Positions 35,130 through 61,110 of a DNA stretch of 64,000 nucleotides are shown here, piece by piece. The stretch lies in the NCBI GenBank assembly GCA_018417955.1, contig JACTVC010000001.1:3224001-3288000 (forward strand), read 5' to 3'. Under the pieces are notes generated by a model that was given only the letters and a program-made list of their open reading frames with translations, was not told the origin of the DNA and did not search any database. The translations under genes and the position numbers were made by a program. Numbering within the stretch: the stretch's first letter is position 1; every line of letters begins with the position of its first letter. The DNA is from Laccaria trichodermophora (taxonomy: Eukaryota > Basidiomycota > Agaricomycetes > Agaricales > Hydnangiaceae).

Positions 35130-35139
35130 GGGGGGGCTT

Positions 35140-35507
35140 TGTAACGGCGTGGTAGTATATACTTCTTGCCTGACCTAGAACCATCGTATTTACATATATT
35201 TGTTTCAACTCTGTATAGTGTTGCGTTCTCAACAAATATACTCACTTTGCAACCACATCATATATTACATGTGGACGGAGTCACCCCTTTTCTGTACGGC
35301 TAGGCAGCCTTATGCCTCCCCTCCGGGATACAAGAGTCCTGCGCCGGGTGACCGCGCCCCAGTTCCTGGGTCACAGGATATTCTCAACGCGGTATCGCCT
35401 CGCGGCACCACGTTACAAACACTCTCCCGCGTACCCCGAATATTCTCCGCCGCCATCTCGCACTCACGCCTTCGTCGAGAAGTCCCGATCAGCCCTTTGG
35501 TTTCACA
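35140..35507 (+). repeat. Element 2 3' LTR
   Basis: This is the direct copy of 19565-19932 with five CpG-type transitions. It is preceded by the polypurine tract GGGGGGGCTT and followed by GACAT. Confidence 0.95.
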
Positions 35508-41135: not shown

Positions 41136-42010
41136 TCAACGACTGGCGCATGCTCGTTTGGTACATCACCATGTATGTTGTCCGTGACGAGGCGCCAGTG
41201 CTGAATGAGAGACAGTTGCGTGGGGTAATGCACGCCCATCCTCCGGAACTTGTAGCAGGGCTTACAGAAGCTGTACAAACTGGGGTTGGGAGCCAGCGTG
41301 AAGAGGAAGCACGTATGGGACGAGAGGAACAGGGAGGGGGAGGTAAGGATGAAGGGGAGGAGGGTGAATGAGTAAATAGGTAGGAATATAGCAGTCATTT
41401 TATTTTTCTTAAGACCGACCTCGTAAGTTATTCACGAAATTCGTTACGTCGACTGAATTTGTTCTTAACGTTCAAAGACAAAGAATTGTATGTGTCGATC
41501 TCCAGCGAATGATAAATGCAAAAGCGGCAGGAGGGGGCTGTTTCGCTCCACGAACCGCAAGAGAATGTGGAAGAAGGCGGAAGGATGAATGGGTTTTTTT
41601 ATATTGTGCTCCAAAAAATGATACCGGTGTCTTTGAAACCTTCCTTCAAATGAAGACGGCGCACTCGCACTTAGCACCCGGTATGCAAATTGATACTGCA
41701 TCTGGATGTTTTAAATTACAAGACGTTAGTACTCAATTCATATATATATGACGCGTACTCATCACCTTCCAGGATTTACTTGAAGCCACGCCTGAAGACG
41801 CGTCCCCTTGACCCCCAAGTCTAGAGCATCCACACACTTGGAGTGTATGCTGCACGGGCCACATATTGGGTTGATTCCTTCGTGTTACTACAATGGAAGG
41901 GTTTGTGAACTTGAATGACCATGCAGAACTATGACTCACAAACCCAAGAAAACTTGAGCGACGCGTCAACCACAGAAAAAGAAATATACAAAATCAGCAG
42001 CACGTACATG
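41136..42010. other. Intergenic DNA before element 3
   Basis: Short frames on both strands have no recognisable content. I see no promoter, repeat or RNA gene here. Confidence 0.4.
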
Positions 42011-42015
42011 CAGTC

Positions 42016-42340
42016 TGTGAAGAGTAGGACTTGATCACTTGACATCACGCGCCGTGTATTGTATTGTACATAGTTGTTTGCTTAGATGTATATACAAGGG
42101 GAACCCTACGTTAGGGTTCCTCATCTTTTGAAATCTACTACCTTTTGCATCATATGCTCGCGGACTAGCGTCTCACGTCTACACAAGCCTGCCAGGCTTG
42201 TGTATCTTACCAACAACACGTCCGGCCGGCTGAGCACCCTGTAACTGCTCACTCACCGGGATAAGCGCTGACACGTCGTCAGCCACCCTCAACTTCTCCT
42301 CTAGACTCACTACGCGAGAAGTCTCGAACACCATTTCACA
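42016..42340 (+). repeat. Element 3 5' LTR
   Basis: It begins TGTGAAGAG and ends TTTCACA. It contains a TATA-like GTATATAC (42089) followed within about 10 bp by a perfect hairpin GGAACCCTA/TAGGGTTCC (42100-42120). A second hairpin, ACACAAGCCT/AGGCTTGTGT, lies at 42181-42203. Both should fall in the transcribed R region. Confidence 0.95.
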
Positions 42341-42341
42341 A

Positions 42342-42359
42342 TGGTGGGGGCACCGCGGA
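42342..42359 (+). other. Primer binding site of element 3
   Basis: TGGTGGGGGCACCGCGGA, one base after the LTR, is identical to that of element 2. Confidence 0.7.
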
Positions 42360-42454
42360 CTTCACCAAAGCGTAGTGAAGTCCACTACTTGAAGGATTAG
42401 GAGAAGGAAGAGAGAGAAGAAGATGGGGAACGAAAGGGAGAGCTTCGGTAGTGA

Positions 42455-43262
42455 AGGCCACAGCTCGCATTATCGCGGCGGGTCTGTTCATGAAGGAGCT
42501 TCATTAGGAAGACCGCAGCTCGCGATATCGCGGCGGGTCCGTTCACGAAGAAGCCCAGCAATTCCCCTAGTATTCTATCTCGAACTCTCGAATCGCTGCT
42601 CGCGAGATTGCGGCGGGTTCGAGATTACAATTGAAGATCGTCCATCGATAAAGGAAAACGACAGATAGTGGAGAGGAGGGACGAGGAATGGGTATACAGG
42701 GAGAGTCTAAGGTGAAACGTACCTCTGCAGCTCGCAGTCATGCAGCGGGTTGTACGCCAATCGAGGACATCTCCCAGGAGTTTCCTATCTACGGACTACG
42801 GATCGCTGCTCGCGTTACCGCGGCGGATCTAAGGTCCATGAAGGAAAACTTCACCCAGTAATTGACGAGCACCAGGGATTTCGCGCATACGCGGCCTTGA
42901 TTTACTCGTCAATTAGTCCTCGAGGTTCTAAGGGTTCAAACTCGCGCTTACGCGGATGAATCCAAGGAGGCATGTCGCTGCTAGCTAAAAGCGGATTCGA
43001 ATACGCGCTTACGCGATCGAGGAAGCATACTAGCTCAGCATAAGGACCGTCCTAGTTGCCTGAAAGGATGAGCAATTTAGCATAAGCCTGCGCTTTCGCG
43101 GCTAGTTAGATCCTTATCAACGGAAAGGCGAGCAAGGCACAGCTCTAACGAGACGAAACCATACTCGCGCCCACGCGGTTAGGATGAATCTCGGAAGAGT
43201 TTCGCATATAAGGAGTAGCAGCCTAATCTACGGACTACTGGATATCGCGATTACGCAGCCGA
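42455..43262 (+). repeat. Array of ten modular GC-rich hairpins in the element 3 leader
   Basis: The core is CTCGCG-loop-CGCGGCG or a variant, at about 42460, 42514, 42593, 42726, 42801, 42938, 43008, 43086, 43162 and 43241. In most copies the sequence outside the core also pairs, but with a different sequence in each copy. Examples are ATCTCGAAC/GTTCGAGAT (copy 3), GGGTTC/GAATCC (6), CTACGGAC/GTCTGTAG (10), CTGCA/TGCAG (4) and GGAC/GTCC (5). The leader otherwise has no long frame. Covarying outer stems argue for a selected RNA structure. Confidence 0.8.
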
Positions 43263-43506
43263 TTGTCTGTAGAGGCAGCTGTACGAATTATATCGATAGT
43301 CCTGAATGAACCCTCTATCTCCTGTTTCCTGTCAACCGTTCATATCGATCGTCGATTTTCATCGATAAAGCAAACCTTAGCAAATTCAGTCTACTGCTCC
43401 ACCGAAAGCTATGCCCCAGCATGTTAAAAGAGCACAGAAGCTACGCGTGGCACAAGTTCGTTAACCCTCAGCTTTCCCCTTATTATTTCCCCGCTCTAAT
43501 CGACAA

Positions 43507-44571
43507 ATGTCTGGTTCTAATCGTAAATCTGCTCTTACGGGACCAGGACAAGCAGGTCAATCAGCCCCTCGATCCTCTTGATCGGCTTCCAATCTTCCTT
43601 CTGCCAACTCGCCTCCAAGGAAAAGAGGTTCCCGCACCAGAGGATCCTCGTCGATCCATCAGGTCGAAGAAGAGTCGAATAGAACCTTACAAACCGTGGA
43701 AGAAAGTCCTAGTCCCTCTGGAAAGAGATCTGAACTACCAGACCCCACGGCTCCCTCTTCCATCTCTGAATCGACTCCAACAGAAGCCGTACGAGGTATT
43801 ATCCATAGGAATAGAAAGGGTAAAGACAAGGAGCCCCACTTGTTTGCGCACGCGCCTCATTTGAAGATGGCCCCGGCGTACGAAGAAACCCTGACCGAGT
43901 CGATCGTCCGATGTCATCACGCCTGGGATCCTGCAGAGGATGCAGACCCTCTACGGGAATTTGGTGCTGAGGAAGGAGTCCTGCAAGGGCTAACTCCTAT
44001 GCAAACTATGCCCTTCTGTGACATACTCATACGTTGGTCAGCACCGCACCAGAACTTAGTATGGCAAAACCTGGAGGACTACGCGCAGGTGCTATGCGCG
44101 ACGAATCTAGCACGTAGTGATATAGAATTGATACCTGAGAACGGGAGATCATATTACGCCCTACACTACAGGATTCTAATGCACACCTATGAAGTTACCC
44201 TTGGAATCACGCAGATTATCTCTACGGTAGACCAATTACTGGATAGGTCGGCATGTCGCTCCTTCAGCATTGACAAGGGTTTTGTTATCCTCAAGCAACT
44301 AGCCATGGGGGAGGATGCGGACCACATCCAGCTCAGTTTCTACACGCTGCAAACCCGATGCAAGGGCGCTGTGAACCACATACGACAGGACCTCAATACC
44401 ATACACGCTATCTTCGGGCAGTTCAACAACGCGTTGACCAACCTTTCGTATAACTCGACTCTCTCGGATATACGGTCGAACTACGGTCAACTACCTCCGC
44501 GTTTAGAGGTGGCTAGGCATATGCTGAGGGAAGATTATCAGAGGGAGATGCCTGAGCACCTGATAAGTTAG
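43507..44571 (+). pseudogene. gag: Element 3 Gag, N-terminal part
   Basis: ATG 43507 opens MSGSNRKSALTG, but an in-frame TGA follows at 43576-43578; the frame then runs to TAG 44569-44571. The second part is helix-rich (YEETLTESIVRCHHAWDP, PEHLIS) and has no motif I know. The next frame (-1) opens at 44556 and continues with KLVEEWVKSG, so the boundary is a frameshift or a recoding site. No canonical slippery heptamer is present. Confidence 0.6.
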
Positions 44572-45182
44572 TGGAAGAATGGGTCAAATCAGGAAGAGAG
44601 GTAAACAGCCGTCCTTATGAAAGGAAGTCAGCCCATTATCCGCAGTTAAAATACAACGATCGGTCAGACTCGCCTAGAGCATGGAGCCATACACAAGGTT
44701 CCGCACCCAGAGTTGCGCCTAGTCAGCCTTCAGTCTTCGGCAGTGTGTCCTCCAGGGATCGGAGACGCGATCCTCCGCCTACCTCCATTTCCATGGCCTT
44801 AAGCCGTAATCACCCTCTTAGCCACTTCGCAGGTCTTAATTCTAACATGGGAGGCGATGAAGGGAAAGAGGGCGAGGACTCGAACCCCCATAATCCATGG
44901 ATCACCGTTCAATCGGGTCGTGCCCATGGCACACGTTCGAAGTCTAGCCAAGTCAATAAGAACGCCCGTTTCGCTAGTCCCAATGAGGATCGACCATCAA
45001 CTTCAGCTTTTTATGCTACGGATAACTTCAGCAACACGAGACAAGGAAGGAGTGGGAGGAGCTCAAATGGAGGTGATCCTCCCGGCGGAGATGGTCCCCC
45101 AGGCGGAGGACTACCGTCAGGACCCAGGAACCCTGCTCGACGAAACTATGAAGGCCTGCCTCCTTTTCGAGGCCACTCGTGA
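44556..45182 (+). pseudogene. Element 3 Gag, low-complexity middle part
   Basis: The frame is rich in Ser, Arg, Gly and Pro (GGDPPGGDGPPGGGLP) and ends at TGA 45180-45182. It stays open beyond in the same frame into the capsid part. The stop is consistent with CGA to TGA. Confidence 0.6.
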
Positions 45183-48100
45183 AACTCAGGGCAAGGACCT
45201 CCAGGAGGAGACCCCCCGGGTGGTGGTCCCAGTTACGGTATCGACCCCGAAGAGAAAGGTCCAGAGGACGAAAAGAACAAGAGTGAATGGCAATTGAATA
45301 ACAAGATCAGCATGGGCATGATACCGCAGTGGGATGGGAACCCCACTACAATGATCGACTACATCATGGAAATCGCATTACTAGCTCGACTTTCAAAAAG
45401 GCTTTTCAAGGAAATAGGACAAATAGCGCCCATTAGATGGACGGGTTCCGCGAAGGGATGGTGGATGACATTACCAAGAGCAGATCAAGCTTACTATTCG
45501 CAAGACTGGGAATGCCTAATGACAGGAATGCGCGACCATTTCATGAATGACGAATGGCTGAACGATAGGGGAATCGAATTCGACGCTATGCGATTTCGTC
45601 GAGGTCATGCTCATTCTCGCGAAACGCCGGAAGAATACTTCAATCGCCGAATACGTCTTCATATGGTTCTCCATCCAGAGGAGATAGACAGATCTACAGT
45701 CACACATCGACTCATGAATAGGCAGCCTATCTTATGGAGTTCCATTCTCAACACAGTCTCATGTCCCAGCATCGTGCAACTCATAAAGTTGGCTAAAGCA
45801 AATCTTATAGCCCAGTATTATAGCGGCCTACGCATTGAGAAGTCGAAGTCAGTTCACACCGTTGAGGCAGCTTCTCCAGAGGATTCAGACAAGAGCGGGA
45901 CAGAGCTTAACGTTATCAAAGAGGCACAAGTAGTAGTGAGAGGAGTAAACAGGAAACGCACGGATTGGCCCAAGGGTAGGACCATCGCAGGTTATAACTA
46001 CTGCCGAGATGACTCAGTGGTCAGCAAAACCCCTCCCCCCGGTCCTTGCTTCATTTGCCTCAGTCCCAAGCACTTCTTCAGAGACTGTCCACATAACACT
46101 AGGTTCTTTACGAAAGCGGCTCACTCAGTAGATGTGACGATAGATCAAGAGGAATTAAACGAACTGGACATAGCGTACTACGATATTGTGTCAGCAGCAA
46201 TGGCATCCGCTTCTGAGTATGAGTCGCCTGAGGTGGTGTCAGAACCGAAGGATAAAAGGAATCGGAACGAACGGAGACGCGAGAAGTTTGATATGAAATC
46301 TAACAAGAAAGGGAAGAGTAAGGTGGAAGACCTTCCTCAAGCCAATCGAGCTACGCGTCGAAAACTGAAGCTTTCCAAAATGGCATCAGTAGCTAGTATC
46401 AACGATGCGCTGCCACGGTCCGAAGAGGAGGACTTGTTCTCGGACGAGGAGGATATCATCGGCTATCCTGACCCTCCTTCAGAGGACGAAGGATCTTCCT
46501 CGAGTCAAGCGGATACGATTCCAGCTTTCTCTACCAATTCCCCTACATCTTCTGTGTCGTCCTTGCCCTCAGCGCCAGTCAAAAAGACAGGAACAAGAAA
46601 GGTTACTATAGAAGAAATAGAGGACCCAGAAGCCCCTCCAGTGTTCCAGTCATCCCCGAAATCTATGCCGCTTAAGGAATCGGAAGGTTACTTCCCTAAT
46701 GAGTCAGACGTTGTAATGGCAGTGAAGAAGGAAGTTAAGCCCGAAGGGCTAGGCTCTATGGGCACCCAAGCACTTCACATCAAAGCACACGTTCAGTCTA
46801 TAGGCAGAGGTGAAGTGAAAGCTCGTCTAGACTCTGGGGCAGATATCACCCTTATGTCAGAAGAGTTTTGGAAGCAATTGGGTACATTGCCTCAGCCGAA
46901 GGAAGGAATGCGGATGAAATTGTATCATCTTACAGGGCACGCCAAAGTTCTTGGGTACATCAAGACCCGTCTGTACACTTTAACGACGGACCAGGTCTGG
47001 ATCGGTTTTGAACTAGAAGCTTACGTAGTCCGAGGCATGAGAGTTCCTCTCTTATTGGGTGAGGACTTTCAAACAGCGTACGAGCTGCATGTGAAACGCT
47101 ACGCTACAGGTCATTGTGAAGTAACTATTAACGATGATATGAAGGTCATCCCCGCGTCATCAGCTCACGATGTGGATCTGGGATTCAAAATACGCCAGTC
47201 CTATCTGACTCAATCATTCGTGCGCGCCAAGACTGCCCGACGTAGACGAGCCAAGAAACTGAAGAAGATGCCCAAAGAGTTATCCCCTGTTTATGCGACT
47301 GAGGACACTAGAGTGGAACCAGGCACTGTGAAAACCATACGAGTAACAGGCGCTTTAAAGGAGAAAAAGGAATGGTTAGTGGAAAAGGTCATAGTTGGCT
47401 CAGACACGACCGACATACTCGCAGCTCCTTTTACCTGGATTTCGTCTGAAAACCCAGTTCTTCCTGTGGCAAACCCGGGCACCAGGCCTCTGTACGTACG
47501 CAAGGGGGAAATCGTAGGTCGTTTAGCGGACCCTTCGTCATACCTAGATCATCCTGATGAGGAGGAGTTACCCAAGTACGCTGCTTTGGCGGAGGCTATC
47601 AAAGTGGTCATTAATGAGACCTTGAAAGAGCGAAGTTCCACGAGCACGAAAACTCAGGAAAGAGCTTTCGATAGTAAGCTGGAAGAAGAGGAGCATTGGG
47701 GACCGAAGACGACAGCCGTACCAGAGGATCCCGCTTCAGGATCCGTGCCAGAATTGGTCAATCTCGGGCCAGATATACCCTCTAATATTCTTCCGCGACT
47801 GAAAGAGGTACTCCAAAGGAACTCTTCAGCTTTCGGCGTCGATGGCAGGTTAGGCCATGTGGATGCTAAGGTTTCTATTCCACTTAAACCAGGGACGGTC
47901 CCTACCTCTTTACCCATGTATGGCGCTTCACCAGCAAAAAGAGAGGTCATCGACCACCAAGTGAAGGCGTGGTTCGAAGCAGGAGTAATCGAACCTTCAG
48001 TTAGCCCCTGGGGATTTCCAGTGGTGGTAGTCTACCGGAACGGGAAGGCAAGACTGGCCATCGACTATCGCAAGTTAAACGCCAACACGATCCCTGACGA

Positions 48101-49244
48101 ATTCCCTATACCACGCCAATCAGAGATCATCCAAGCTTTATCAGGCTCTCAAGTACTATCATCCTTTGACGCCCTCGCTGGGTTCACGCAGTTGGAAATG
48201 AAGGAAGAGGAGAGGGAAAAGACTGCATTCCGGTGTCACTTGGGATTATGGCAATTCCGTAGGATGCCATTCGGCCTACGCAACGGTCCCTCCATCTTCC
48301 AGCGGCTTATGCAAGGGATCCTAGCCCCGTATCTTTGGTTGTTCGCCTTAGTTTATATCGACGACATCGTGGTGTTTTCGAAGTCTTGGGAAGAACATCT
48401 CACACACCTCGACGTAGTCCTGGGGGCGATAGCTAAGGCAGGAGTAACATTGTCCCCTTCCAAGTGTTTTATAGGATATTCATCCATCCTCCTACTGGGA
48501 CAGAAAGTGTCACGCCTAGGGTTGTCCACTCATCAGGAGAAAGTACAAGCTATACTGGATCTGGACCGCCCGACATCGGTAGCAGACTTACAAAAATTTT
48601 TGGGCATGGTTGTTTATTTTTCACAGTATATACCTTATTATTCATTTATCGCTGCGCCATTATTTGCACTATTGAAGAAGGGAGTCAAGTGGCATTGGGA
48701 CGCGGAACATGAGCTAGCCTTTCACGAAGCGAAGGAGACGCTGTCCAAGGCCCCAGTGTTAGGCCATCCGATTCAAGGTCTCCCTTACCGACTGTACACG
48801 GACGCCTCCGACATCGCCCTGGGCGCGTGTTTGCAACAAGTACAGCCGATCTTGGTAGGAGACTTAAAGGGTACACAGGTGTATGATCGATTGCAGAAAG
48901 CCTGGGCTGCCAGCGCACCTGTTCCAAGCTTGTTTCGATCGTTCGCTACGGACTATGAGGAAGGCGACTCTAATTCAGTCTGGGGGGCCACTTTGGACGA
49001 AACGGTGGTGCATGTCGAACGAGTGATAGCATATTGGAGCCGCACGCTTAAGTCAGCGGAGAGGAATTATAGTACGACGGAGAGAGAAGCTTTAGGAGCA
49101 AAGGAAGCTCTAGTAAAATTCCAGCCGTTCGTCGAGGGAGAGCAGGTTCTTCTTATCACGGATCACGCAGCGCTACAGTGGGCGAGAGTTTATGAGAACG
49201 CTAACCGGAGACTAGCCGCGTATTCGCAGCTTACCCAGGTCTGA
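45183..49244 (+). CDS. gag-pol: Element 3 Gag capsid, protease, RT and RNase H
   Basis: After the TGA the frame runs to 49244 (ATG-independent; residues below are counted from 45294). A Ty3-type capsid (IPQWDGNP...WGM-like tryptophan-rich region) occupies about residues 5-190. The zinc knuckle CFICLSPKHFFRDC starts near residue 252. The protease active site ARLDSGADITLM has its Asp near residue 513. Reverse transcriptase has LAIDYRKLN and the catalytic YIDDIVVF (near residue 1021). RNase H has LYTDASDIALGACL (near 1170), TTEREAL and ITDHAALQWAR. The frame ends early, at 49244, because of a short deletion just after RLAA. In element 2 the same place still reads RLVAWGA. Pol is thus split from integrase in this copy. 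Confidence 0.9.
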   Translation, partial: NSGQGPPGGDPPGGGPSYGIDPEEKGPEDEKNKSEWQLNNKISMGMIPQWDGNPTTMIDYIMEIALLARLSKRLFKEIGQIAPIRWTGSAKGWWMTLPRADQAYYSQDWECLMTGMRDHFMNDEWLNDRGIEFDAMRFRRGHAHSRETPEEYFNRRIRLHMVLHPEEIDRSTVTHRLMNRQPILWSSILNTVSCPSIVQLIKLAKANLIAQYYSGLRIEKSKSVHTVEAASPEDSDKSGTELNVIKEAQVVVRGVNRKRTDWPKGRTIAGYNYCRDDSVVSKTPPPGPCFICLSPKHFFRDCPHNTRFFTKAAHSVDVTIDQEELNELDIAYYDIVSAAMASASEYESPEVVSEPKDKRNRNERRREKFDMKSNKKGKSKVEDLPQANRATRRKLKLSKMASVASINDALPRSEEEDLFSDEEDIIGYPDPPSEDEGSSSSQADTIPAFSTNSPTSSVSSLPSAPVKKTGTRKVTIEEIEDPEAPPVFQSSPKSMPLKESEGYFPNESDVVMAVKKEVKPEGLGSMGTQALHIKAHVQSIGRGEVKARLDSGADITLMSEEFWKQLGTLPQPKEGMRMKLYHLTGHAKVLGYIKTRLYTLTTDQVWIGFELEAYVVRGMRVPLLLGEDFQTAYELHVKRYATGHCEVTINDDMKVIPASSAHDVDLGFKIRQSYLTQSFVRAKTARRRRAKKLKKMPKELSPVYATEDTRVEPGTVKTIRVTGALKEKKEWLVEKVIVGSDTTDILAAPFTWISSENPVLPVANPGTRPLYVRKGEIVGRLADPSSYLDHPDEEELPKYAALAEAIKVVINETLKERSSTSTKTQERAFDSKLEEEEHWGPKTTAVPEDPASGSVPELVNLGPDIPSNILPRLKEVLQRNSSAFGVDGRLGHVDAKVSIPLKPGTVPTSLPMYGASPAKREVIDHQVKAWFEAGVIEPSVSPWGFPVVVVYRNGKARLAIDYRKLNANTIPDEFPIPRQSEIIQALSGSQVLSSFDALAGFTQLEMKEEEREKTAFRCHLGLWQFRRMPFGLRNGPSIFQRLMQGILAPYLWLFALVYIDDIVVFSKSWEEHLTHLDVVLGAIAKAGVTLSPSKCFIGYSSILLLGQKVSRLGLSTHQEKVQAILDLDRPTSVADLQKFLGMVVYFSQYIPYYSFIAAPLFALLKKGVKWHWDAEHELAFHEAKETLSKAPVLGHPIQGLPYRLYTDASDIALGACLQQVQPILVGDLKGTQVYDRLQKAWAASAPVPSLFRSFATDYEEGDSNSVWGATLDETVVHVERVIAYWSRTLKSAERNYSTTEREALGAKEALVKFQPFVEGEQVLLITDHAALQWARVYENANRRLAAYSQLTQV

Positions 49245-51139
49245 AGATCGTGCACAGGCCAGGTCGCGTGCACTCCAATGTAGACCCCTTATCCAGGCTA
49301 CCGAGAACTCCGCAGCATAGTTCTCCGGTTCAAGACGAATTACAATCCATTAGTTCCGACGAAGAGAAGCGGAGAGTAGCTCAAGAAGCAGAAGATCGCA
49401 TGGGCAAATCGGCAGCTCGTAAAGCAGCATTTACAGCATGGTGGTGGGAGGACCTGTTAGATGCTCAGGCATTCGCTATCGAGACGAAGGCCAAAGACGA
49501 AGACGACGGACTGCCAAAGGCTTTTCCAGAAGTTGATCAGTGGTCCTATCTGTTAGATTCGCAGCCCGAAGGAAAGGAAGAGGAATGGGAGAGTAAAGCT
49601 CACCTCCTGGTGGCTCTAAGCCCGGAAGTGATAAGCGAATTCGCGAAGGGATATGAGGAAGATCTGTTCTTCAGACAATACTACGCAGAAGAAATTCCAA
49701 ATCCTCGCATAGCCATCACACCTTCACACTTCCGCAAAGGATCAAACGGGTTGCTTTATTTTATCGATGCTCGTTGGGAGACCAGGCTCTGCGTTCCCCG
49801 ATCTCAGATACAGTTCGTACTAGAATGGATCCACGAAGCCCCACACGAAGCCGCTCATGGGGGATATGTCAAGACGTTAGAACGAGTTCGTGAATTATTC
49901 TTCTGGAAAGGCATGAACCGAAGTACCGAGAAGTTTTGCGAGACCTGCGACGTATGCCAGAAAACTAAGACCAACCGTACTAAGAAAATGGGCGCACTAC
50001 GGCCTTCGCATATCCCCTCGCGACCGTTCGAAACAGTATCACTAGACCTCATTACGGGACTACCACCCTCTGGTGCTGAAAAGTACACTGCGATTCTAGT
50101 CATTGTGGATAAATTCACTAAGTTTGGGCTCTTCATACCCACTCACGACACTCTATCTCAAGAAGGATTCGCGAAGTTGTTCGTCGAAAGGGTAGTACAC
50201 GTGTATGGCATGCCTCACAGAATTATCGCTGACCGCGATCGTCGCTGGGCAACGGGCTTTTGGAGGACGGTAGTAGCTTTACACGGAGCTAAGATGGCGC
50301 TATCATCCTCCCACCACCCTCAAACCGACGGACAAACTGAGATCCTCAATGCGACTATTGAACAAATGTTGAGGGCCTATGTATCTCACGATCGTAGTTC
50401 CTGGTCCGAATGGTTATCAGTCTTAGCATTTGCCTATAATTCCGCGAGGCACTCTTCCACCAAAGATACTCCAAATGGGTTGCTGCTTAACTATCATCCG
50501 AAGATATCAACGGGAGAAATTCTATTGGGAACAGAATCCTCTGAAGTTACTTTCCACCCTAGTCACCAAGGAGAAGAGTACGTCAAGACTATTAATCTTC
50601 GACGGGATCAAGCGAGGGACGCTTTGGTACTCGCACAACAACGGCAAGCAAAAGCTTACAATAAGGATAGACGCCCCGTGGAGGAGATCAACCCAGGTGA
50701 TTTAGTGTTAGTCAACCCACACACGTTGAAACTCGTAGAAGTCGAAGGCACGGGCAAGAAACTCGTTCAGAGAATGATAGGCCCTTTTGAAGTAATGGAG
50801 CGTGTCAATCCAAACGTCTACCGACTCAGACTTCCAGACTCTTATCCCATGCACCCAGTAATCAATATCGATCACCTGAGGAAGTACAAACAATCTCCAG
50901 AAGAGTTCAAAAGTCATACTACTTTGCCTTCTACTCGAGACTTCCTGCCTAGTGAGGAGTATGAAGTCGAAGCCATTTTGGGACATAAGCTGACAGGTCG
51001 AAAGAAAGGCAATCGAAGGATGTTTAGAGTTAGATGGGTTGGGTATGGGCCAGAGGCGGACTCCTGGGTTTCAGAGGCTGACTTACGCAATTCCCCGGAA
51101 ATTAAAAGGGAATACCTTATTAAGATGGGACTAAACTAG
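49205..51139 (+). CDS. int: Element 3 integrase with chromodomain
   Basis: The frame opens at 49205 (VFAAYPGLKIVHRPGRVHSN) and belongs to the same polyprotein as the preceding frame; the shift is -1. The zinc-binding HHCC lies at about 49850-49960 (HGGYVKTLERVRELFFWKGM, CETCDVCQ). The catalytic triad is D in LDLITGL, D in IADRDRRW and E in TDGQTEILN, with DX35E spacing. A GPF/Y motif (IGPFEVMERVNPNVYRL) comes next, then a chromodomain (YEVEAILGHK...FRVRWVGYGPEADSWV) at about 50960-51095. The chromodomain targets integration to modified histones and places the element among chromoviruses. All integrase catalytic residues are intact. Confidence 0.92.
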   Translation, partial: PETSRVFAAYPGLKIVHRPGRVHSNVDPLSRLPRTPQHSSPVQDELQSISSDEEKRRVAQEAEDRMGKSAARKAAFTAWWWEDLLDAQAFAIETKAKDEDDGLPKAFPEVDQWSYLLDSQPEGKEEEWESKAHLLVALSPEVISEFAKGYEEDLFFRQYYAEEIPNPRIAITPSHFRKGSNGLLYFIDARWETRLCVPRSQIQFVLEWIHEAPHEAAHGGYVKTLERVRELFFWKGMNRSTEKFCETCDVCQKTKTNRTKKMGALRPSHIPSRPFETVSLDLITGLPPSGAEKYTAILVIVDKFTKFGLFIPTHDTLSQEGFAKLFVERVVHVYGMPHRIIADRDRRWATGFWRTVVALHGAKMALSSSHHPQTDGQTEILNATIEQMLRAYVSHDRSSWSEWLSVLAFAYNSARHSSTKDTPNGLLLNYHPKISTGEILLGTESSEVTFHPSHQGEEYVKTINLRRDQARDALVLAQQRQAKAYNKDRRPVEEINPGDLVLVNPHTLKLVEVEGTGKKLVQRMIGPFEVMERVNPNVYRLRLPDSYPMHPVINIDHLRKYKQSPEEFKSHTTLPSTRDFLPSEEYEVEAILGHKLTGRKKGNRRMFRVRWVGYGPEADSWVSEADLRNSPEIKREYLIKMGLN

Positions 51140-51308
51140 AACTAGGAAAGGGTTCTTGATCTTCTATAGGAATTAAGCGAAATTACAAACACCGCTAAAG
51201 TCTAAGGGAATTTGGAGGTGCCTTCCCCTCTAAGTCCCAGAGTAATACTGCCACGTATACACTGTCACTACAAATCCCTTCTCTGCCAGTCAACCCACGC
51301 TCATTCCT

Positions 51309-51704
51309 ATGCCCAACAAATTCCCTGCCTATCCTTTGCCAATTCACGTTAAGGATTGCTCTTCATGCCCCAACCCTTTATGCTGCATTAAAACCTCGCA
51401 CGACTTCCAAGATCTTCTTCCGATGCCCTCTGTACCAACTGGTATTCCTCGACTAGAGATTACTCACTTTGAGGAAGTTAATCCCTTCTCTACAATCAAC
51501 TGTTGGAAATCAGTGACGTTCAGTGCTCGTGACCTCAGAAACGAACCTTGGGTGTATTTACCAGGAGGTTATGGTTCCGTTAAGCTTCTGAAGGTATTGG
51601 AGGTGAAAGGATGGGTGTTATACAACGGGATGAGAGATGAACGGTTAATAGCCAGGATAGCCTTGCCTAAACAGCGACGCTGGCAGTGGTGGTGGTGGTG
51701 GTAG
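51309..51704 (+). CDS. Small ORF between integrase and ORF3
   Basis: This 131-codon frame has a cysteine group (KDCSSCPNPLCC) and ends in a tryptophan run encoded by a TGG microsatellite (51686-51703). It has a plausible ATG at 51309. It may be a real accessory protein or a fragment of ORF3's upstream part. Function unknown. The rest of 51140-52138 shows nothing else. Confidence 0.35.
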   Translation: MPNKFPAYPLPIHVKDCSSCPNPLCCIKTSHDFQDLLPMPSVPTGIPRLEITHFEEVNPFSTINCWKSVTFSARDLRNEPWVYLPGGYGSVKLLKVLEVKGWVLYNGMRDERLIARIALPKQRRWQWWWWW

Positions 51705-52138
51705 GAAGAACGCTCGGAGAGATGGAGTTTAGTGGTCCTTTTCTCACTTCCTGCATTCACACGAGAACCCAATTCATTTCAAAACATCACACGAAGGCCG
51801 GCGTCGCATCTGACATTCACCCACGAACTTCTTCACTAATTCCGTTCAAAGATCTATCGGCATTCATCCATCATTTCATAATTGTAACATATTGGTATTA
51901 CACAATACGTGGGCATGTCCGTGGGAGTAATCTAGGATAATTACCTCTTTGTACTATCTTCGTCCTTTCATTGATCAAAGCTTTGGTCCCATCCAAACAA
52001 CTTCACGTAGATCCCGATCGGTCCAGAAAGACTCGTATTGCCGCGCCCGAGACGAATTAGAATCACTCCCTTGATAGGAATCCCACCACGGAAGGTCGAC
52101 TCTTATCATCGCTCATCCTAGAACCGAAGAAAACTATA

Positions 52139-53854
52139 ATGTACACCAAGTTTACGCATACCCCTGCGCCAGGCGGATACGATTCCAGGATTTATGACAC
52201 GATGCGTAGGAAAAGCCTATCAGGATATTTCGAGCTTCCGGTGGTCGACGATACCTTATCACTCATCCTGCCACCTTTCTCTCGAGTTCATAGCCATCTT
52301 GTCACGACGCATAGCAAAACTTGGTTATTATGGTCCCCAAACTCCCTAGTCGAAGCGTACTACCCAGGCATTAGGGCTCCAGGGCACGAAGTTAAAATAG
52401 AAGAGGATAGAACGAAGAGGCGCTTTGACGGTCACTTAGGACGATTCGACCCCACGAAGTCACCACAGCACTACGATCCATTACAGCCGTGGTTGCCGTT
52501 CGTGAAACGAGAACAGGCACATGTGGCGAGCATCGAGAACGCTCCACTGGCTATTGCATGGGTTAGCTCTTCGCCTCGAAGGGAGATGAGGGATCTAGGG
52601 CGCCTGGATACAGCTCTCCTAATACAGCTTACGACGCGCAACATCGAACTGGAAGCTGCCGTATCCACGATGACGATCATAGCCGACATCAAGCAGGAGT
52701 ACTGGGATAATAGGCCATGCTACCCTAGTGAGAGCGAGATTAGAGGATTGGGAGGAGAACATCATTATGCAGATGCGGTGGATTTGGTGACTCGGATACA
52801 AAGGGGCTTGAAGTTGAAGGACGCGTGGTTAAAGGCAATGTCTATCGTTAAGAGGGAACATAGAGAAGCAGCGATGAAGGAATGGATGACGGAGACACCA
52901 TTTGCCGTGGACGACGTCTTGGGAACCTGGATCAACGGTGCCAGAGAGGAACACGTTTATTGGCTCTTGAAACATAGAATCCCTTGTTTCATCATCCACG
53001 AGGTTCCTATTACAGAACTATATAACTACAAGGAGGATCATAAGCACCAAGACTTTGTCGCCTCAACAGATATCCAGTACCTCGCGCCAAAGACCAATGC
53101 CTACAATCACGTCGCTTATAAAAAGCAAGCTACATTCAACAATGACAAGGACAGGGAGGGAATACCGGCGGGCTATCCTACCTTATCAGTGGGAGATCGC
53201 GTTAACTCGGACCCAGCGACACAGGGATGGGACGGGATCAAGCATAAACGACTGGAGGAGCTTCAGGAAGTAGTAATGCGGCCAGTCGAGCCGAATCGAC
53301 GTCCAGAGAGCACGACACACGGCTCCGGAGCCCCTTCCTCTAGCCGTACCTACGACGACCAGGAATTAGAAGTTCGATCCCTAGCAAGTGACAGAGTAGA
53401 TTGGATAGTACCACCCGCAGTAATGGCCGTTTTGGATGGTAAATGGACGTTCTGGAAAGAATGCGACATCACCCCGGACTGCTACTATTTCTGTCTTGTA
53501 TCGCCTAGGCCCGACGATTGCGAAAGGGTGTGTTACGATAGACAGAGAAGGAGGGAGATATTCTTCTTGGAGGGCATGGAGACTCCTATCGGCGCCGTGT
53601 CAGACATAGAGAAGTTCGGATTCCCAGCTCCCCTAGCGCGGTTCGTCGAGATGAAGGAGGAGGAAATCACGAAGGAACATCCAGCTTCGCGTTGGATCTA
53701 TACCAAGAAAACAGCCTCCAAGGGAACGGTTGGTCAACGAGCTCCAACACCGTCAGCAACAGAGCTCCCGTTGAAGAAACTATCCGTCAAGGGCAAAGAG
53801 AAGATCGTTTATGCCCCTGTGACACACCACCCTCCTTCCCCTAGGAGGTCTTAG
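52139..53854 (+). CDS. ORF3 of element 3, N-terminal part
   Basis: ATG 52139; 571 codons in the sense direction, downstream of integrase. The protein is mixed alpha/beta with a long conserved-looking middle (YWLLKHRIPCFIIHEVPITELYNY is at about 52958-53029). A Ser/Pro-rich C-terminal stretch ends at TAG 53852-53854, exactly where the TIR element begins. I recognise no enzyme or envelope motif, and no signal peptide or membrane segment. Similar extra proteins are known in large basidiomycete Gypsy elements, but I cannot name this one. The gene continues after the insertion. Confidence 0.65.
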   Translation: MYTKFTHTPAPGGYDSRIYDTMRRKSLSGYFELPVVDDTLSLILPPFSRVHSHLVTTHSKTWLLWSPNSLVEAYYPGIRAPGHEVKIEEDRTKRRFDGHLGRFDPTKSPQHYDPLQPWLPFVKREQAHVASIENAPLAIAWVSSSPRREMRDLGRLDTALLIQLTTRNIELEAAVSTMTIIADIKQEYWDNRPCYPSESEIRGLGGEHHYADAVDLVTRIQRGLKLKDAWLKAMSIVKREHREAAMKEWMTETPFAVDDVLGTWINGAREEHVYWLLKHRIPCFIIHEVPITELYNYKEDHKHQDFVASTDIQYLAPKTNAYNHVAYKKQATFNNDKDREGIPAGYPTLSVGDRVNSDPATQGWDGIKHKRLEELQEVVMRPVEPNRRPESTTHGSGAPSSSRTYDDQELEVRSLASDRVDWIVPPAVMAVLDGKWTFWKECDITPDCYYFCLVSPRPDDCERVCYDRQRRREIFFLEGMETPIGAVSDIEKFGFPAPLARFVEMKEEEITKEHPASRWIYTKKTASKGTVGQRAPTPSATELPLKKLSVKGKEKIVYAPVTHHPPSPRRS

Positions 53855-55479
53855 TGATGCCCTACATATTCCTGCCGGATTCCGGTCATTCCAGCGGATT
53901 CCGGTGCCATTCCAGTGGAATTTACCAGCCAAAATTTCACTCCAGCCACGGAATATTGATATTCCGGGATTTTCACCGGAACAGTCCCCGGAATGCACCG
54001 GAACGGAATGGCACTGGAATCCAGTGACCGGAATGAGCACTAAAAATTGCCAAATATGGCAAGTTCTATATTTTCAGATAAAAATTAACAATAAAATCAG
54101 AAAAAAAATAGGGATGGTGGTAATGATGTTGGGGTACTGTTTACATGGTCTGTGCGCATTTCCTAATATGGTAATTAATGCAAATATAACCAGAAAATCA
54201 GGAAAAAAAGATAGAAAAAATATAGGGATGGTGCTCACTATTGGTGATGTTGTTGGGGTATTGCTTACATGATCTGTGCGCATTTCCAAATATGGTAATT
54301 TATGCAACTATAGCCAGAAAATCAGGAAAAAAGAATAAATATGATGTAGACTCTTGTTGACAATGTTGGAGTAGTGTTTACATGGTCTGTGCACATTTCC
54401 AAATATGGTAATTAATGCAAATATAGCCAGAAAATCAGGAAAAAAAGAGAAAAAAGAATGAACATGATGTAGACTGTTCTTGACAATGGTGAAGTAGTGT
54501 TCACATGGTCTGTGCACATTTCCAAATATGGTAATTAATGCAAATATAGCCAGAAGATCAGAAAAGAAGGGGAAAAGGTATACACATGGTGTTAACTGTT
54601 ATTGACAATGTTGAAGTAATGTTTACATGGTCTGTGCACATTTCCAAATATGGTAATTAGTGCAAATATAACCAGAAAAACAGAAAAACAGCAGAGACAT
54701 GATGTTAACCATTGTTGACAATGTTGGGGTACTGTTTACATGGTCTGTCCACATTTCCAAATAGCTGTTGTCAGGTTCAGGGTACAAATCCAAAAAAGGA
54801 AATTTAAGTATTTCTAGTAAAAGAATAGCAGAACACTCACAAAAAAATAGAGTTGGTATATGCAGTGTATACAATATGAGGCACTGCCTTCAGGGTCCAT
54901 GTCAGGGTCATTTATATATATCTATGAAAGGAAATATGATCTTGTATGACCAAAAAGTCAAGAAATTCAAGATAATGAGGATTCTGCTTGTCAGGGTTCA
55001 TTCAATGGGATGTCAGGATGATGGTCACATGACCAATTACCAAAAATGGTCAAAAAACAAAAGTTGTAGCCCTGCACTGTAGCTTCCCAAATCTGGTTGA
55101 ATTGTGTTCTGAAGTACTCCCATTGTGGATATATGAGGTAAAAGATTTTCAAAAGTGTCGCGTTTTTTTTTGTATTTTGTACTTTTCTCCATGAAAACAA
55201 CACCAAATAATATGATTTCAACACATTTACAAAGCTAAGAGAAAGGGCTACAACTATTGTATCGTGGGAAATTTGACCCAAAAAGGAAGGTGTATACCCT
55301 AAAAGGGATAATAACGCTGATAGACTACAAAAGTCAGTTTATATACACACAGAATCTGGTGGAATCCAGGCCCATTCCAGAGGATTCCAGTCCATTCCTG
55401 TGGATTCCAGTCTATTCCTGTGGAATCCGGTGGAATCCAGCGGAATGGACCCATTCCTGCAGGAATATGTAGGGCATCA
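53855..55479. mobile_element. 1.6-kb non-autonomous TIR element inside ORF3
   Basis: Perfect 21-bp terminal inverted repeats (TGATGCCCTACATAT... at 53855-53875; complement at 55459-55479) are followed by subterminal repeats of GGAATCCAG and ATTCCGGTG type. Inside are about six diverged tandem units of about 120 bp (CATGGTCTGTGCACATTTCC, 54145-54760). There is also a module of about 310 bp shared with the foldback element (55015-55330). No transposase. I could not find a clear target duplication (flanks CTTAG and AAAAG), so the superfamily is unassigned. Confidence 0.88.
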
Positions 55480-56432
55480 AAAAGTACAGTTCCCCTAGCA
55501 TACTACGTAGACCATCGTCCGGGCCCCTCCCCAAACCGTCAGCCGCTGTTATGCCACCGCCTGTTCCTGCATGACCAACCCCGACAGAACCCAGATCCTA
55601 CCGGTTGCAGTCCCACCCTTCTCAGGATCAAGCAGCGCAGGACGCGGGGCATCAATTACGTCGGTGTCCCCGAGCTCCCAGTTCCAGTTCGGAACACCCT
55701 GCGGCTAGTGACGGGAGTCACGCTAAAAAGATTAAGAGTTCAGACAGCGCGAAACCGCCGACGTCCGACGTTTCGAACCCCCACCCCAAGAAACTCGCTA
55801 CGCCCTTGCCCGCAGTTATAGCAAGGATAGAATCGTCCGCCTCTCCGACGTTCGAGCCCAACAGACCGCTATCTGTGGTACAAGCTAACTTCAGCACTTT
55901 GGGAAGCCACTCTTCCGATTCTCGTTTCCTGTGCTTCGAGGGTCTACCGCCTGATTGGGAGACTTGCCGCGTATGGTTTTATAGCATGGCAGTCTCCTCC
56001 CACTTCGTTTGGATCAATCGACTATTCCGAACGGTTGTACACGGAGTTCCCCTTATCTGGGTAGACATGAGAAGTAACGATGATGCATGCACCTTATGAG
56101 GATACCTGACGCACCGAACCATGGCAGACGGCTCATTAGTTATCAGCCACTTCATGGCAGAAAGCGTATTCATTGAAGCTACACGGAATGCTACGGACTC
56201 TTGGACTCGACCTCCCTCAGCGGTATCTACTGGCAAAGACGACCCTATGGACGGTCCAGGCCCTTCCTCCATTCCCCTCGAGGAGCGGTTAACCTCCCCC
56301 GGTCCTTCTAATCCAGCTCCGGACGTTTCCTTACTTCATTGTGCGGCCGTAACTTTGGAAGAACGAGTAGAGCGCCGTCCTCGAGGTGGGCAGAAGCATC
56401 GCAAGTACAAGGCCAAACAACAGAAATCGTGA
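55480..56432 (+). pseudogene. ORF3 of element 3, C-terminal part
   Basis: The frame is continuous apart from two TGA codons (55572-55574 and 56097-56099), both explicable as CGA to TGA. After a Ser/Pro linker, FLCFEGLPPDWETCRVWFY...RTVVHGVPLIWVDM (about 55926-56075) has the strand-helix-strand look of an RRM-like RNA-binding fold. The C-terminus is basic (RRPRGGQKHRKYKAKQQ). The stop is at 56430-56432, shortly before the polypurine tract. An RNA-binding role in the particle is an inference. Confidence 0.55.
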
Positions 56433-56457
56433 TCACGGCTACTGATGTGGGGGGCTT

Positions 56458-56782
56458 TGTGAAGAGTAGGACTTGATCACTTGACATCACGCGCCGTGTA
56501 TTGTATTGTACATAGTTGTTTGCTTAGATGTATATACAAGGGGAACCCTACGTTAGGGTTCCTCATCTTTTGAAATCTACTACCTTTTGCATCGTATGCT
56601 CGCGGACTAGCGTCTCACATCTACACAAGCCTGCCAGGCTTGTGTATCTTACCAACAACACGTCCGGCCGGCTGAGCACCCTGTAACTGCTCACTCACCG
56701 GGATAAGCGCTGACACGTCGTCAGCCACCCTCAACTTCTCCTCTAGACTCACTACACGAGAAGTCTCGAACACCATTTCACA
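56458..56782 (+). repeat. Element 3 3' LTR
   Basis: This is the direct copy of 42016-42340 with three CpG-type differences. It is preceded by GGGGGGCTT and followed by CAGTC. Confidence 0.95.
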
Positions 56783-56787
56783 CAGTC

Positions 56788-57155
56788 TGTGCGAGCCCTC
56801 CCCTTTCTCAACAGCTTCGTCGTAATCGATAGCCCACTCGAACTTCCCACTCGAACATCCAGCGATTGAAGTAAGGAGGCATCGTATGGTATTCAGTGGG
56901 ACAAGATATTCCCAGCGAGTCCGACCGGGCATCTCATTCGCCTCAAGAAAGTGACGAGGGAATCAGCACATATGCACAACCGAAAAGTGCAAACCGCGCG
57001 AAGGACAATACATCTACAGCTGCAATATCGGCCCTAGTTGTACCTCATGCGCGCCGCAGAGTCCTTCTTCCTCCACGACGACGAAGACGCGTCACTGCTA
57101 CACATTGGCAGTGCACTTGTGTCACACTCACGCCACTACACATAAAGCAAACACC
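56788..57155. other. Flank between element 3 and the next gene
   Basis: A minus-strand frame (about 56932-56780) with GKFEWAIDYDEAVEKGEG crosses the element 3 junction and could be an exon of a gene broken by the insertion. The support is weak. Confidence 0.3.
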
Positions 57156-57807
57156 ATGGAATGCGAACATGTCCTCGGGACAACAGAAAGAGATAATTCG
57201 ATCACAGAAGTGGAAGAAATGGAGATGATCGGGCGGATGGATGGAGGTAAGAACACTCGAGGCACATCATGCTCATACTGACCATCTGAAAAGGACAGTA
57301 CACATTCAACATGGAACAGGACTCTGTAATGACAACGACCAGCGGTGAGGTCGCTTCTCACACACGAAGAACTTGAACGAATAGCGTGTATCCACAGGAC
57401 CCTTGTCAAACTTCGCAACGTCCGAGTCGGACAAACTACCTGCAACTCATGGGGATACCATAACTACCAATGGCATTACGACGACGTCGTGGCCCGCGAA
57501 TTCTGGCGTCAAGACAACTCAGACGAAACGCGGGACGTTATTGGCAAACAACGCTAATACGGCGTCCAATGTGCGGGATGGAGGATTGAATACTACAGAT
57601 GATGGAGATAGAGGGACCGCTTCAATTGGCGAAACGGCTAGCCAGCCATTGACTACTACGCGGAGAGTGGGACGAGGTATGTACCTCAACTTCTCCTCAA
57701 AATCCTAATTCATCAACGTTACAGCATTATCTCGACTTCGAGGAAAACGGGGTGAACGCGTACCATCTAGTCCCGCTCTCCGCACGACAGTCCAACACCT
57801 CGTTTAA
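57156..57807 (+). CDS. Small spliced Thr/Ser-rich protein gene
   Basis: ATG 57156; exons 57156-57246, 57294-57344, 57399-57676 and 57725-57807, with introns of 47, 54 and 48 bp (GTAAGA, GTGAGG and GTATGT donors) that all keep phase. The product is about 167 residues: an acidic N-terminus (EVEEMEMIGRMDGG), a Thr-rich middle (TTNGITTTSW) and a basic end (RLRGKRGERV). No family recognised. Codon-phase agreement at three introns is the main support. Confidence 0.5.
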
Positions 57808-58007: not shown

Positions 58008-58326
58008 TGTGATATAGGATTGGAAGGGAATGCCCAGAGGCCATAGTCAAACAGTGGTATATAGCTAGATTTGGATATCTTACATAATATATTGATCTTT
58101 TGTCTTGAACCACCACCTTGTCAGCAGTCTTGCCATCCTCTTGCACTACATGTAGTGCTTTGTATAACTGTACTTCCTACAGTATGCATAATCATGTTGG
58201 GCCAGCTGAGTATCTTGTAACTGCTCATTGCTCACTCATGGGTGTTGATCCCAGATCCACCCATTCTTGCCTCCTCCTTCCCTCTTCGCTTCAGCTATGC
58301 GAGAAGTTCAGAGTGAACGCTTCACA
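58008..58326 (+). repeat. Element 4 5' LTR
   Basis: It begins TGTGATATAGG and ends GCTTCACA. It contains the palindrome CACTACATGTAGTG and a short hairpin ACTGTA/TACAGT. Confidence 0.95.
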
Positions 58327-58327
58327 A

Positions 58328-58345
58328 TGGTGGGGACACCGCGGA
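58328..58345 (+). other. Primer binding site of element 4
   Basis: TGGTGGGGACACCGCGGA follows the LTR by one base. It differs from elements 2 and 3 at one position. Confidence 0.7.
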
Positions 58346-58446
58346 CTTCACCAAAGCATGGTTGAAGTCTGCATTTCTTGGTAGAGGGAGAGCTGGAGAG
58401 TTGTGGGAATGCGCCAGCTCATCACAGGAGGAACCTTAGCATGGAT

Positions 58447-58690
58447 GGTAGCTGCTGCTCGCGCTCTTCGCGGCGGGCTTACTACTTCATGTGAAAGGGC
58501 TCATCCATCCTTCAGTTGGATGAACCATTGACTTTAGCTTGTGCTTGCACAGCTGGTTGAGGTTTGTTCGATTGGGGTGCTGCGCTGACTCTGAGCAGCT
58601 GGGCTTTCAGATTTCGCGACTACGCAGCCTGAAGTCTACTGTGAGGAGAGTTCCTACTCACCTATGTCTGGATTCCGCGACTACGCGACC
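58447..58690 (+). repeat. Hairpin array in the element 4 leader
   Basis: At least three copies carry the element 3 core. They are GCTCGCG...CGCGGCGGG (58458), TTCGCGACTACGCAG (58613) with outer stem TTCAG/CTGAA, and CCGCGACTACGCG (58675). Confidence 0.75.
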
Positions 58691-59049
58691 ATTGACTTGG
58701 TGAGGAGGTTGCCCACAACCAGTGTTACCTGCTGCTTTGCGCTGTTTCACTGTCTCTCAGACTCCACCTGTTCCTCAACCATCTCCCTTGTCTTTTAGCA
58801 TCTAGGCCTCTCAAGAACAGCCAGATGTTCATTGACATCCCTCCAGTTCAGTCTACTGCTCTGGAAATTATGTGCTATGCCCTACTATGCTTCTCTCCCA
58901 ATCCTTGCTGTTTTCTTGCTTGAGGGCTGAGTATTCTCATCCTCCTTACTTCTCTATGAACTCTCTGGAATGGCTCTTCTTGGTTTCTGAATGGTTAGAA
59001 GGGTTTGGAGTGGTTTTAGGTTGGATGGGGTTGATGGAACATCAACACA

Positions 59050-60300: not shown

Positions 60301-60713
60301 TACAGTGCCATCTCTTCAACAACCATTTCCCCATTCCTATTGTCATAACCTGCTCGCATCGGACGCTCTATAGCCCGTTTGAAACGCCTGAATCGTACCT
60401 TTCCGACGCACCTATTCACGTCGATAACGGACAACAGCCTGGTCTGCAGTATGCATTTACTCCAGAACTGCAGTTTCTGGGTATTACCTCTCTATCTCGA
60501 CAACAACGGCTCGTCACGATACGCGAATTATACCGTTGGAAAGGCGTCGTTCGTAGCTTTCGAACGGGTATTTGATCCCCAGGAACGGGCCAGAAATCAC
60601 TACGCTATGCTCAAACACATTTTTGGCTACCTCAGGATCTCCCCTCTATTTGGGGTGTTAAGACTTGATTGGAGGACTCTTATGGGCAGGGGAGACACCT
60701 CAACTGGTTGAGA

Positions 60714-61110
60714 GTTGCTGCTCGCGCATTACGTGGTGGACTCTTCTTCAGTCATGGTAACCTTCTGGCTCCATCAGAAGGCTGATTGCTGCTCGCGCGT
60801 TGCGCGGCAGATCAGTGTGGAGGAGTTGCAGCTTGCGCATTACGCGGCGGACTCTTCTTCAATCATGGTAACCTTCTGGGTCCCTCAGAAGTACTGATTG
60901 CTGCTTGCGTGTTACGCGGCGGATCAGTGTTGAGGAGTTGCTGCTCGCACATTATGCGGCGGACTCTTCTTCAATCATGGTAACCTTCTGGCTCCTGATT
61001 GCAGCTCGCATGTTTTGCGGCGGATCAGTGTTGAGGAGTTGCTGCTCGCACATTATGCGGCGGACTCTTCTTCAATCATGGTAACCTTACAGATTGCTGC
61101 TTGTGTGTTG
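60714..61110 (+). repeat. 3' hairpin array of element 4
   Basis: Eight units of GCTGCTCGCG...CGCGGCGG type alternate two outer stems: AGGAGT/ACTCTT and CTGAT/ATCAG. The units are separated by a constant TCATGGTAACCTTCTGG spacer or by a short link. Confidence 0.8.

Follow-up and report, generated by a model that had tools for sequence, protein, structure and literature searches.

A selected array of CGCG-topped hairpins in the leader of a Laccaria trichodermophora chromovirus: a candidate multi-copy signal for recognition of the element RNA

The leader of El1, a chromovirus of Laccaria trichodermophora, contains eleven CGCG-topped hairpins in one shared orientation. The hairpins are confirmed as genuine, and selection acts on the fold of their RNA. 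Judged from its sequence and distribution, it most likely represents a lineage-specific, multi-copy, cis-acting RNA signal that would serve Gag recognition, packaging or dimerisation. That eleven look-alike hairpins precede the first gene, stay folded through paired changes and recur in a neighbouring element lacking recognised genes suggests a repeated handle by which the RNA of the element could be recognised. The window, i.e., the whole stretch of DNA that was analysed, comprises 64,000 nucleotides, and all positions refer to it. The LTRs, primer binding sites, leader elements, hairpins and coding region of El1 and El2 described below are located on the plus strand.

El1 is bounded by long terminal repeats (LTRs) and spans positions 42016–56782, with the array region at 42454–43273. 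Its 5' LTR (42016–42340) has TG...CA ends and is 99.1% identical to the 3' LTR (56458–56782) over 325 bp. The target-site duplication CAGTC is found outside the LTRs at either end of the element. The primer binding site (PBS; 42342–42359), identified by a pattern search and from the sequence itself, pairs with the 3' end of an intron-bearing tRNA. The array is thus situated between the PBS and gag, as originally predicted. Genome-wide, the El1-type PBS pattern occurs at 131 sites, and the tRNA-end pattern that matches it is found at seven genomic places, three of which were retrieved (L080, L081, and L082). We read the anticodon in these three genes as GAA, which would indicate tRNAPhe, while ARAGORN splices them otherwise, once as Asn and twice as Val. 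The introns of the three genes vary in length and sequence. A self-primed PBS had also been considered and was discarded after the tRNA match turned up.

Two further elements of the leader flank the array. A stem-loop, GCGGACTTCAC / GTGAAGTCCAC (42355–42385), which overlaps and follows the PBS, was identified by alignment and consensus folding, and a similar stem is visible by eye in four sister leaders. At the 3' end of the leader, the conserved block TTCAGTCTACTGC...GCTATGCC (43385–43415) is shared by all six aligned leaders and is present in the second element El2 as well, and similar blocks exist in the sister leaders L070 and L071. In the consensus fold, this block is paired with the PBS region, and a splice acceptor or a long-range pairing are possible functions for it. 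An intron spanning the array was considered, as TTCAG, followed by TCTAC, resembles an acceptor, but no convincing shared donor or branch site could be recognised by eye. In the sister leaders L069 and L072, a short intron appears by eye to follow the PBS stem (GTACGT or GTGAGC ... CTAAC ... TAG) and is not obviously shared by array-bearing leaders.

The gag-pol region (43507–51139) is divided into several frames and includes gag, a protease-like sequence, reverse transcriptase (RT), RNase H and an integrase with a chromodomain. Matches to RVT_1 and RNase H were obtained in 45183–49244 and an integrase zinc-binding match in 49205–51139, which places RT and RNase H upstream of the integrase. 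The chromodomain (PF00385) is located at the integrase C-terminus (residues 586–637, E 2.7e-10), and the protease match is weaker than Pfam's cut-off. The LTRs, the target-site duplication, the tRNA-type PBS, the order of RT/RNase H before integrase and the chromodomain identify El1 as a chromovirus, which upholds the original classification. Its Gag exhibits a CX2CX4HX4C knuckle, as read from the sequence. The gag of this copy carries an early in-frame stop (43507–43581), and some of the other copies in the genome possess a single long gag-pol frame, for example one of 2616 aa at C1:2.93 Mb. A third open frame is located between pol and the 3' LTR (52061–53854 and onward). It yielded no match in a Pfam scan, and 100 matching stretches were found in the genome, some of them near array-bearing and array-free elements and often as frames of about 1000–1200 aa. 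The 3' part of El1 also contains an apparent insertion (53850–55480), whose ends are inverted (ccctacatattcctg ... caggaatatgtaggg) and which includes AT-rich tandem repeats; a part of it (54995–55339) recurs with 84% identity at 21839–22183 and 23990–24334.

Within the array, five type A hairpins (42454–42833 by core pattern) are followed by six hairpins of type B or a B-like form (42859–43273). The total of eleven is the union of two core-pattern scans. The pattern CGCGNNNNCGCG with one mismatch is found at ten places in the leader and a stricter pattern, again with one mismatch, at nine; the original prediction had located the hairpins correctly and counted ten of them. In type A, a variable outer stem of some six pairs is followed inward by a bulged G and a single C-G pair, then by a bulged A or U and the two GC/GC pairs, and finally by a bulged U and the four CGCG/CGCG pairs, which close a loop of four or five bases; all three single-base bulges are located on the 5' strand. 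Type B comprises a variable outer stem, GG/CC, a 4x1 internal loop, CGCG/CGCG and a four-base loop. Covariance models were built for type A (R1) and type B (R2). Their training sets include hairpins of El1 and El2, which had originally been found by pattern and core scan, and the scores of these training copies are consequently no independent evidence.

The type A hairpins, all of them training sequences, are located at 42454–42488 (R1 35.2 bits), 42509–42543 (42.9 bits), 42577–42625 (38.4 bits; folding z -2.86), 42721–42755 (36.5 bits; z -0.81) and 42793–42837 (40.7 bits; z -2.79). The third has a long outer stem, ATCTCGAAC/GTTCGAGAT. For the fourth, two competing pairings exist, one of which is CTGCA/TGCAG, and the fold of the single segment adopts neither the outer stem of the model nor CTGCA/TGCAG alone. 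Type B proper is represented by the first and last hairpins of the second group, both training sequences: 42859–42915, with the outer stem AATTGACGAG/CTCGTCAATT (R2 46.6 bits; z -5.88), and 43227–43273, with TCTACGGAC/GTCTGTAGA (52.5 bits; z -3.04). The four copies between them deviate. The B-like hairpin at 42932–42963 (GGGTTCA/TGAATCC; z -3.86) is matched by R2 although it is outside the training set (22.0 bits, E 4.5e-5), and R1 also matches its top at 42941–42955 (11.5 bits). The other three were identified by core scan and gave no match in an R2 scan at E up to 1: 42991–43026, with a register shifted by one (z -2.22), 43067–43118, a variant with a bulged U (z -1.85), and 43143–43199 (z -2.42). 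A weak R2 match at 53605–53636 (15.1 bits, E 0.018) was taken as chance. Four of the five outer stems that had been proposed were borne out, namely ATCTCGAAC/GTTCGAGAT, GGGTTC/GAATCC, CTACGGAC/GTCTGTAG and GACC/GGTC; the fifth, CTGCA/TGCAG, is only one of the two pairings that compete in the fourth hairpin.

The region 42440–43290 folds with an energy z of -5.2, which was equalled by none of 20 shuffles. Across the window, the stricter core pattern has 15 occurrences, nine of them in the El1 leader, against 3.4 expected, and none of 100 shuffles reached 15. Together with the finding that both core patterns, when reversed, have no match in the genome, these results rule out a chance origin of the array. 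Folded singly, 16 segments gave z values from -0.57 to -5.88, so that some hairpins fail to beat their shuffles; the weakest folds were obtained for 42503–42549, 42715–42765 and 60705–60750. A known Rfam family was likewise ruled out, as the Rfam covariance models produced no match in 41500–57500 at E up to 1.

Selection on the fold is best seen in related leaders. A fold was derived from El1 alone with a span of up to 100, in which 251 of 320 pairs enclose a core, and was examined in five aligned relatives (L002, L004, L008, L073, and L074); this fold draws some hairpins, e.g., the first, differently from the model. In the relatives, 851 of 1004 cells are paired, 108 of them with one-sided and 91 with two-sided compensation, and 153 are broken. 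When the 3' partners were swapped among pairs of the same kind, a null that preserves the history of each column, 78.4 ± 0.9% of cells were paired and 36.3 ± 5.3 showed two-sided compensation, and none of 5000 replicates was as high as the observation for either measure. The predicted selection for an RNA fold is thereby supported. The three diverged leaders account for most of the signal (426 of 560 cells paired, 87 two-sided vs. 34.8 ± 5.3 in the null), while the closest relative, L002, is uninformative with no two-sided cell. Local pairs of El1 outside the cores show no advantage over the null: 225 of their 288 cells are paired and none is compensated on both sides, compared with 2.5 in the null. 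RNAalifold, applied to the same six-leader alignment, assigned two-sided changes to 66 of 245 pairs, those of hairpins included, in a fit that itself uses covariation.

Covariation between the repeats, on which the original prediction had relied, is visible among paralogues. In the type A copies of the window (13 copies, 12 distinct), 92.9% of cells are paired and the covariation score is 0.480, compared with 0.275 ± 0.030 in shuffles and a slid maximum of 0.162. A set of 83 copies (61 distinct), whose alignment was model-fitted, gave similar values (92.4% paired, 0.488 vs. 0.257 ± 0.012, slid maximum 0.149). For type B, 19 of 26 matches were used after removal of four copies in the shifted form and three judged to be duplicates; 71.9% of cells are paired (0.384 vs. 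0.205 ± 0.021) and the outer pairs are formed in only 65% of cells. Two-sided cells exceeded all shuffles in every paralogue set (25, 138, and 52). Counted by pairs in which such a change occurs, however, there is no clear excess over shuffles (6 vs. 5.3, 9 vs. 7.0, and 11 vs. 10.7). In a tree-aware, all-pairs test of the paralogues, performed with an R-scape-style script of our own on 60 distinct type A rows, 561 column pairs and 60 null alignments, no pair reached E<0.05, the best values being 0.14 and 0.42. The two best-ranked pairs belong to the structure, as do five of the first ten in all, and the other five are located outside it. Restricted to the 13 proposed pairs by rescaling of the all-pairs test, pairs 2-33 and 3-32 yielded about 0.003 and 0.01, respectively. 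Covariation becomes strong only once related leaders are included.

Several features of the hairpins bear on the question of whether they act as RNA. In 60 distinct type A copies, which were recovered by a model that includes the bulge positions, the bulged U12 is retained in 60, G7 in 56 and A or T at position 9 in all 60. As these bulges are confined to one strand and kept, they speak for RNA. An excess of G.U pairs over A.C is expected when a fold acts as plus strand RNA. In the leader alignment, 85 G.U were counted against 66 A.C, a weak difference (one-sided p 0.07); only in the paralogues, after exclusion of column pair 6-29, was it clearer (60 against 35, p 0.007), with copies that are not independent. 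The excess is suggestive only.

The genomic distribution was assessed by core-pattern searches of one 59 Mb genome, which returned 364 type A and 139 type B matches. In the original prediction, hits spread without association to LTR leaders would have spoken against the array; core matches are instead tied to PBS-bearing leaders. Among the matches listed for contigs C1–C7, 35 of 46 type B matches are found downstream of an exact PBS at a distance of no more than 1.5 kb; of 100 type A matches, 19 are located downstream within 1.5 kb and 88 within 5 kb, a count that takes in 3' arrays. None of these listed matches was oriented opposite to the PBS within 1.5 kb (type B) or 5 kb (type A). Conversely, 21 of the 39 exact PBS sites on these contigs have a core match within 1.5 kb. 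The 11 type B matches lacking an exact PBS comprise two in L004 and one in L024, both of which have a slightly changed PBS, one in the leader fragment L075, which has no PBS, two background matches and five further matches. The background matches (L078 and L079) were rejected, as their surroundings resemble each other and contain neither a PBS nor a second hairpin. The 12 type A matches without an exact PBS within 5 kb include three in L004, one in L024, two near C1:1.97 Mb, which have an El2-like 3' end downstream (L022), and six others.

In addition to El1, hairpins were identified by R1/R2 or core scan in L002, L003, L004, L007/L008, the diverged L073 and L074 and the fragment L075. L005 and L006, in which only the later leader is covered, are linked to the group by DNA similarity alone (89% and 97%); L005 gave no R1 match in this later part. 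The retrieved stretches L076 and L077 contain no PBS and are thus uninformative on leaders. Four sister leaders with the same PBS (L069–L072), by contrast, were matched by neither R1 nor R2 at E up to 1 and contain only loose, scattered matches to the core, although the RT of these elements is 77–80% identical to that of El1. Such sister families do without the array, which is consequently unnecessary for elements of this kind in general; their existence was not part of the original prediction. Matches to the N-terminal part of the El1 Gag split into groups of 59–95% and 22–30% identity, with single pieces of the closer group at 40%, 67% and 76%, the first of which is located beside the array-bearing C76 leader. 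Matches to the third open frame split similarly (50–97% and 26–39%). These sequence comparisons point to a co-occurrence of the array with a Gag N-terminal part and a third open frame strongly unlike those of other families, as judged from the part of the closer groups that was checked for the array.

A second LTR element of the window, El2 (58008–62205), carries the same hairpins and was likewise absent from the original account. Its LTRs (58008–58326 and 61887–62205) are 100% identical and flanked by GACGA at both ends, its PBS, from 58328, is almost identical to that of El1, and recognised gag or pol genes are absent. Among the matches listed, the Gag and RT parts of El1 have none in El2, the RT search having scored 93 of 392 candidates. 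El2 contains two stop-to-stop frames of at least 150 aa, and a Pfam scan of the longer one (271 aa) revealed nothing above the cut-off. Four tandem repeats of 321 bases are located at 59051–60328; as this period is a multiple of three, the 271 aa frame stays open. The El2 leader contains one type A hairpin (58448–58483; R1 41.1 bits) and two type B hairpins (58596–58641 and 58657–58702; R2 47.0 and 51.9 bits), the latter at a spacing of 61 bases that also separates the first two B hairpins of El1. Seven more type A hairpins with two kinds of outer stem are found near the 3' end (60711–61070; 45.2–51.1 bits each); all ten are training sequences. The motif is hence present in cis, in the leader and near the 3' end, in a putative non-autonomous partner, and it is present in relatives of El2 as well. 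Kinship of El2 to the El1 lineage is indicated by the PBS, the 3' end, where GGGGGGCTT precedes the 3' LTR in both elements alike, and parts of the LTRs compared by eye. The shared hairpins could therefore reflect inheritance instead of function, and five aligned leaders of the El2 family are too alike for compensation to show. Neither R1 nor R2 has a match in a third LTR element of the window, whose LTRs are located at 19564–19932 and 35139–35507 and whose PBS pattern is at 19929. After its 5' LTR, a long inverted repeat with internal repeats is located at 20657–25381.

Conserved tops and bulges combined with outer stems that change and yet remain paired are what would be expected of repeated protein-binding RNA sites. 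The leader location, the zinc knuckle of Gag, the presence and multiplication of the hairpins in El2 and the co-occurrence with Gag and the third open frame lead us to infer that the reader is the element's own Gag and that the function is packaging or dimerisation. We accordingly favour, at a little under even chances, the interpretation that the array is a set of lineage-specific hairpins through which the genomic RNA of a clade of chromoviruses is recognised by protein, most likely by the Gag of that clade. The recognised surface would be the conserved top, in which two CGCG strands enclose a tetra- or pentaloop, together with the bulges, and the outer stems would hold it up. An El1-type Gag might bind through its zinc-knuckle part or its group-specific N-terminal part, and cooperative binding to many copies could select the full-length RNA, dimerise it or nucleate assembly on it. 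El2, which retains and multiplies the same tag, might then be packaged in trans. A more far-reaching version is conceivable, though we hold it only tentatively: the hairpins would form a modular address tag, a multi-copy code of one chromovirus clade that is read by its own fast-changing Gag and separates the clade from sisters sharing its host, its primer and most of its RT sequence, while a gene-less element, which bears multiplied copies of the tag at both ends, exploits this code.

Recognition of the hairpins by a host factor, in favour of nuclear export, stability or silencing escape of the unspliced RNA, appears unlikely. Many short bulged stems that are lineage-specific and present at both ends of El2 would suit any protein that reads bulged stems, but nothing here points to one from the host, and four sister leaders exist in the same host without the array. 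Control of gag translation, by internal entry or by shunting past the long leader, is distinctly unlikely, and ribosome entry is the role we favour least among the three that had initially been proposed besides packaging and dimerisation. Plain scanning would indeed encounter 13 ATGs in the 1166 bases between PBS and gag; a similar ATG density is found, however, in two array-free sister leaders (5 in 549 and 5 in 491 bases), and El2 has no recognised protein to translate, yet bears hairpins, more of them near its 3' end.

Two explanations that dispense with a function of the folded RNA are disfavoured. Hairpins might be multiplied by slippage during reverse transcription and quasi-palindromes perfected by template switching, and it is true that copies come and go among relatives and that the 3' array of El2 resembles a tandem expansion. 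Such a mutational origin is nevertheless very unlikely: correction by template switching should erase bulges, yet they are kept in nearly all copies amid changing stems, and other local stems of the El1 leader show no compensation. Highly improbable, finally, is an action of the motif as double-stranded DNA, e.g., as a CGCG-rich protein-binding or methylation site. The CpG richness and near-palindromic sequence of the conserved top would suit such a site, but the outer stems maintain pairing over sequence and the type A bulges are one-stranded.

If the array is a signal read by Gag, its interest lies in the comparison that it offers. The way in which fungal LTR retrotransposons select their RNA has, to our knowledge, been worked out closely in a few yeast elements only. 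Here, a multi-copy signal that can be read from the sequence is shared by one group of elements and an apparent parasite, while four close relatives in the same cell lack it, and this pattern provides a natural comparison of which part of Gag reads which RNA. El1 and El2 together would also constitute a simple model for the continued access of a non-autonomous element to a helper.

Among known systems, several resemble the array in part. Ty3 and other chromoviruses share with El1 the order of RT and RNase H before integrase, the terminal chromodomain and the tRNA-type PBS; they differ in their leaders, insofar as four sister leaders of the same genome have no El1-type array. The mobile GC-rich hairpin modules of fungal mitochondrial DNA are likewise GC-rich and present in many copies, but they are scattered, whereas the listed El1-type copies are mostly tied to PBS-bearing elements and to their orientation. 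The dispersed packaging signals proposed for some single-stranded RNA viruses are also numerous stem-loops that share a recognition motif and vary in their stems; in contrast to the clustered and strongly alike hairpins of El1, they are scattered and mostly only weakly alike. Packaging and dimerisation signals of retroviruses and LTR retrotransposons are exemplified by psi of murine leukaemia virus with its double hairpins. These signals are similarly located between PBS and gag, are formed by short stem-loops of the full-length RNA and are kept by elements without coding capacity. El1 differs from them by its eleven modular copies in two architectures with a shared CGCG top, by a copy number that varies among relatives and by the additional array that the non-autonomous El2 carries near its 3' end.
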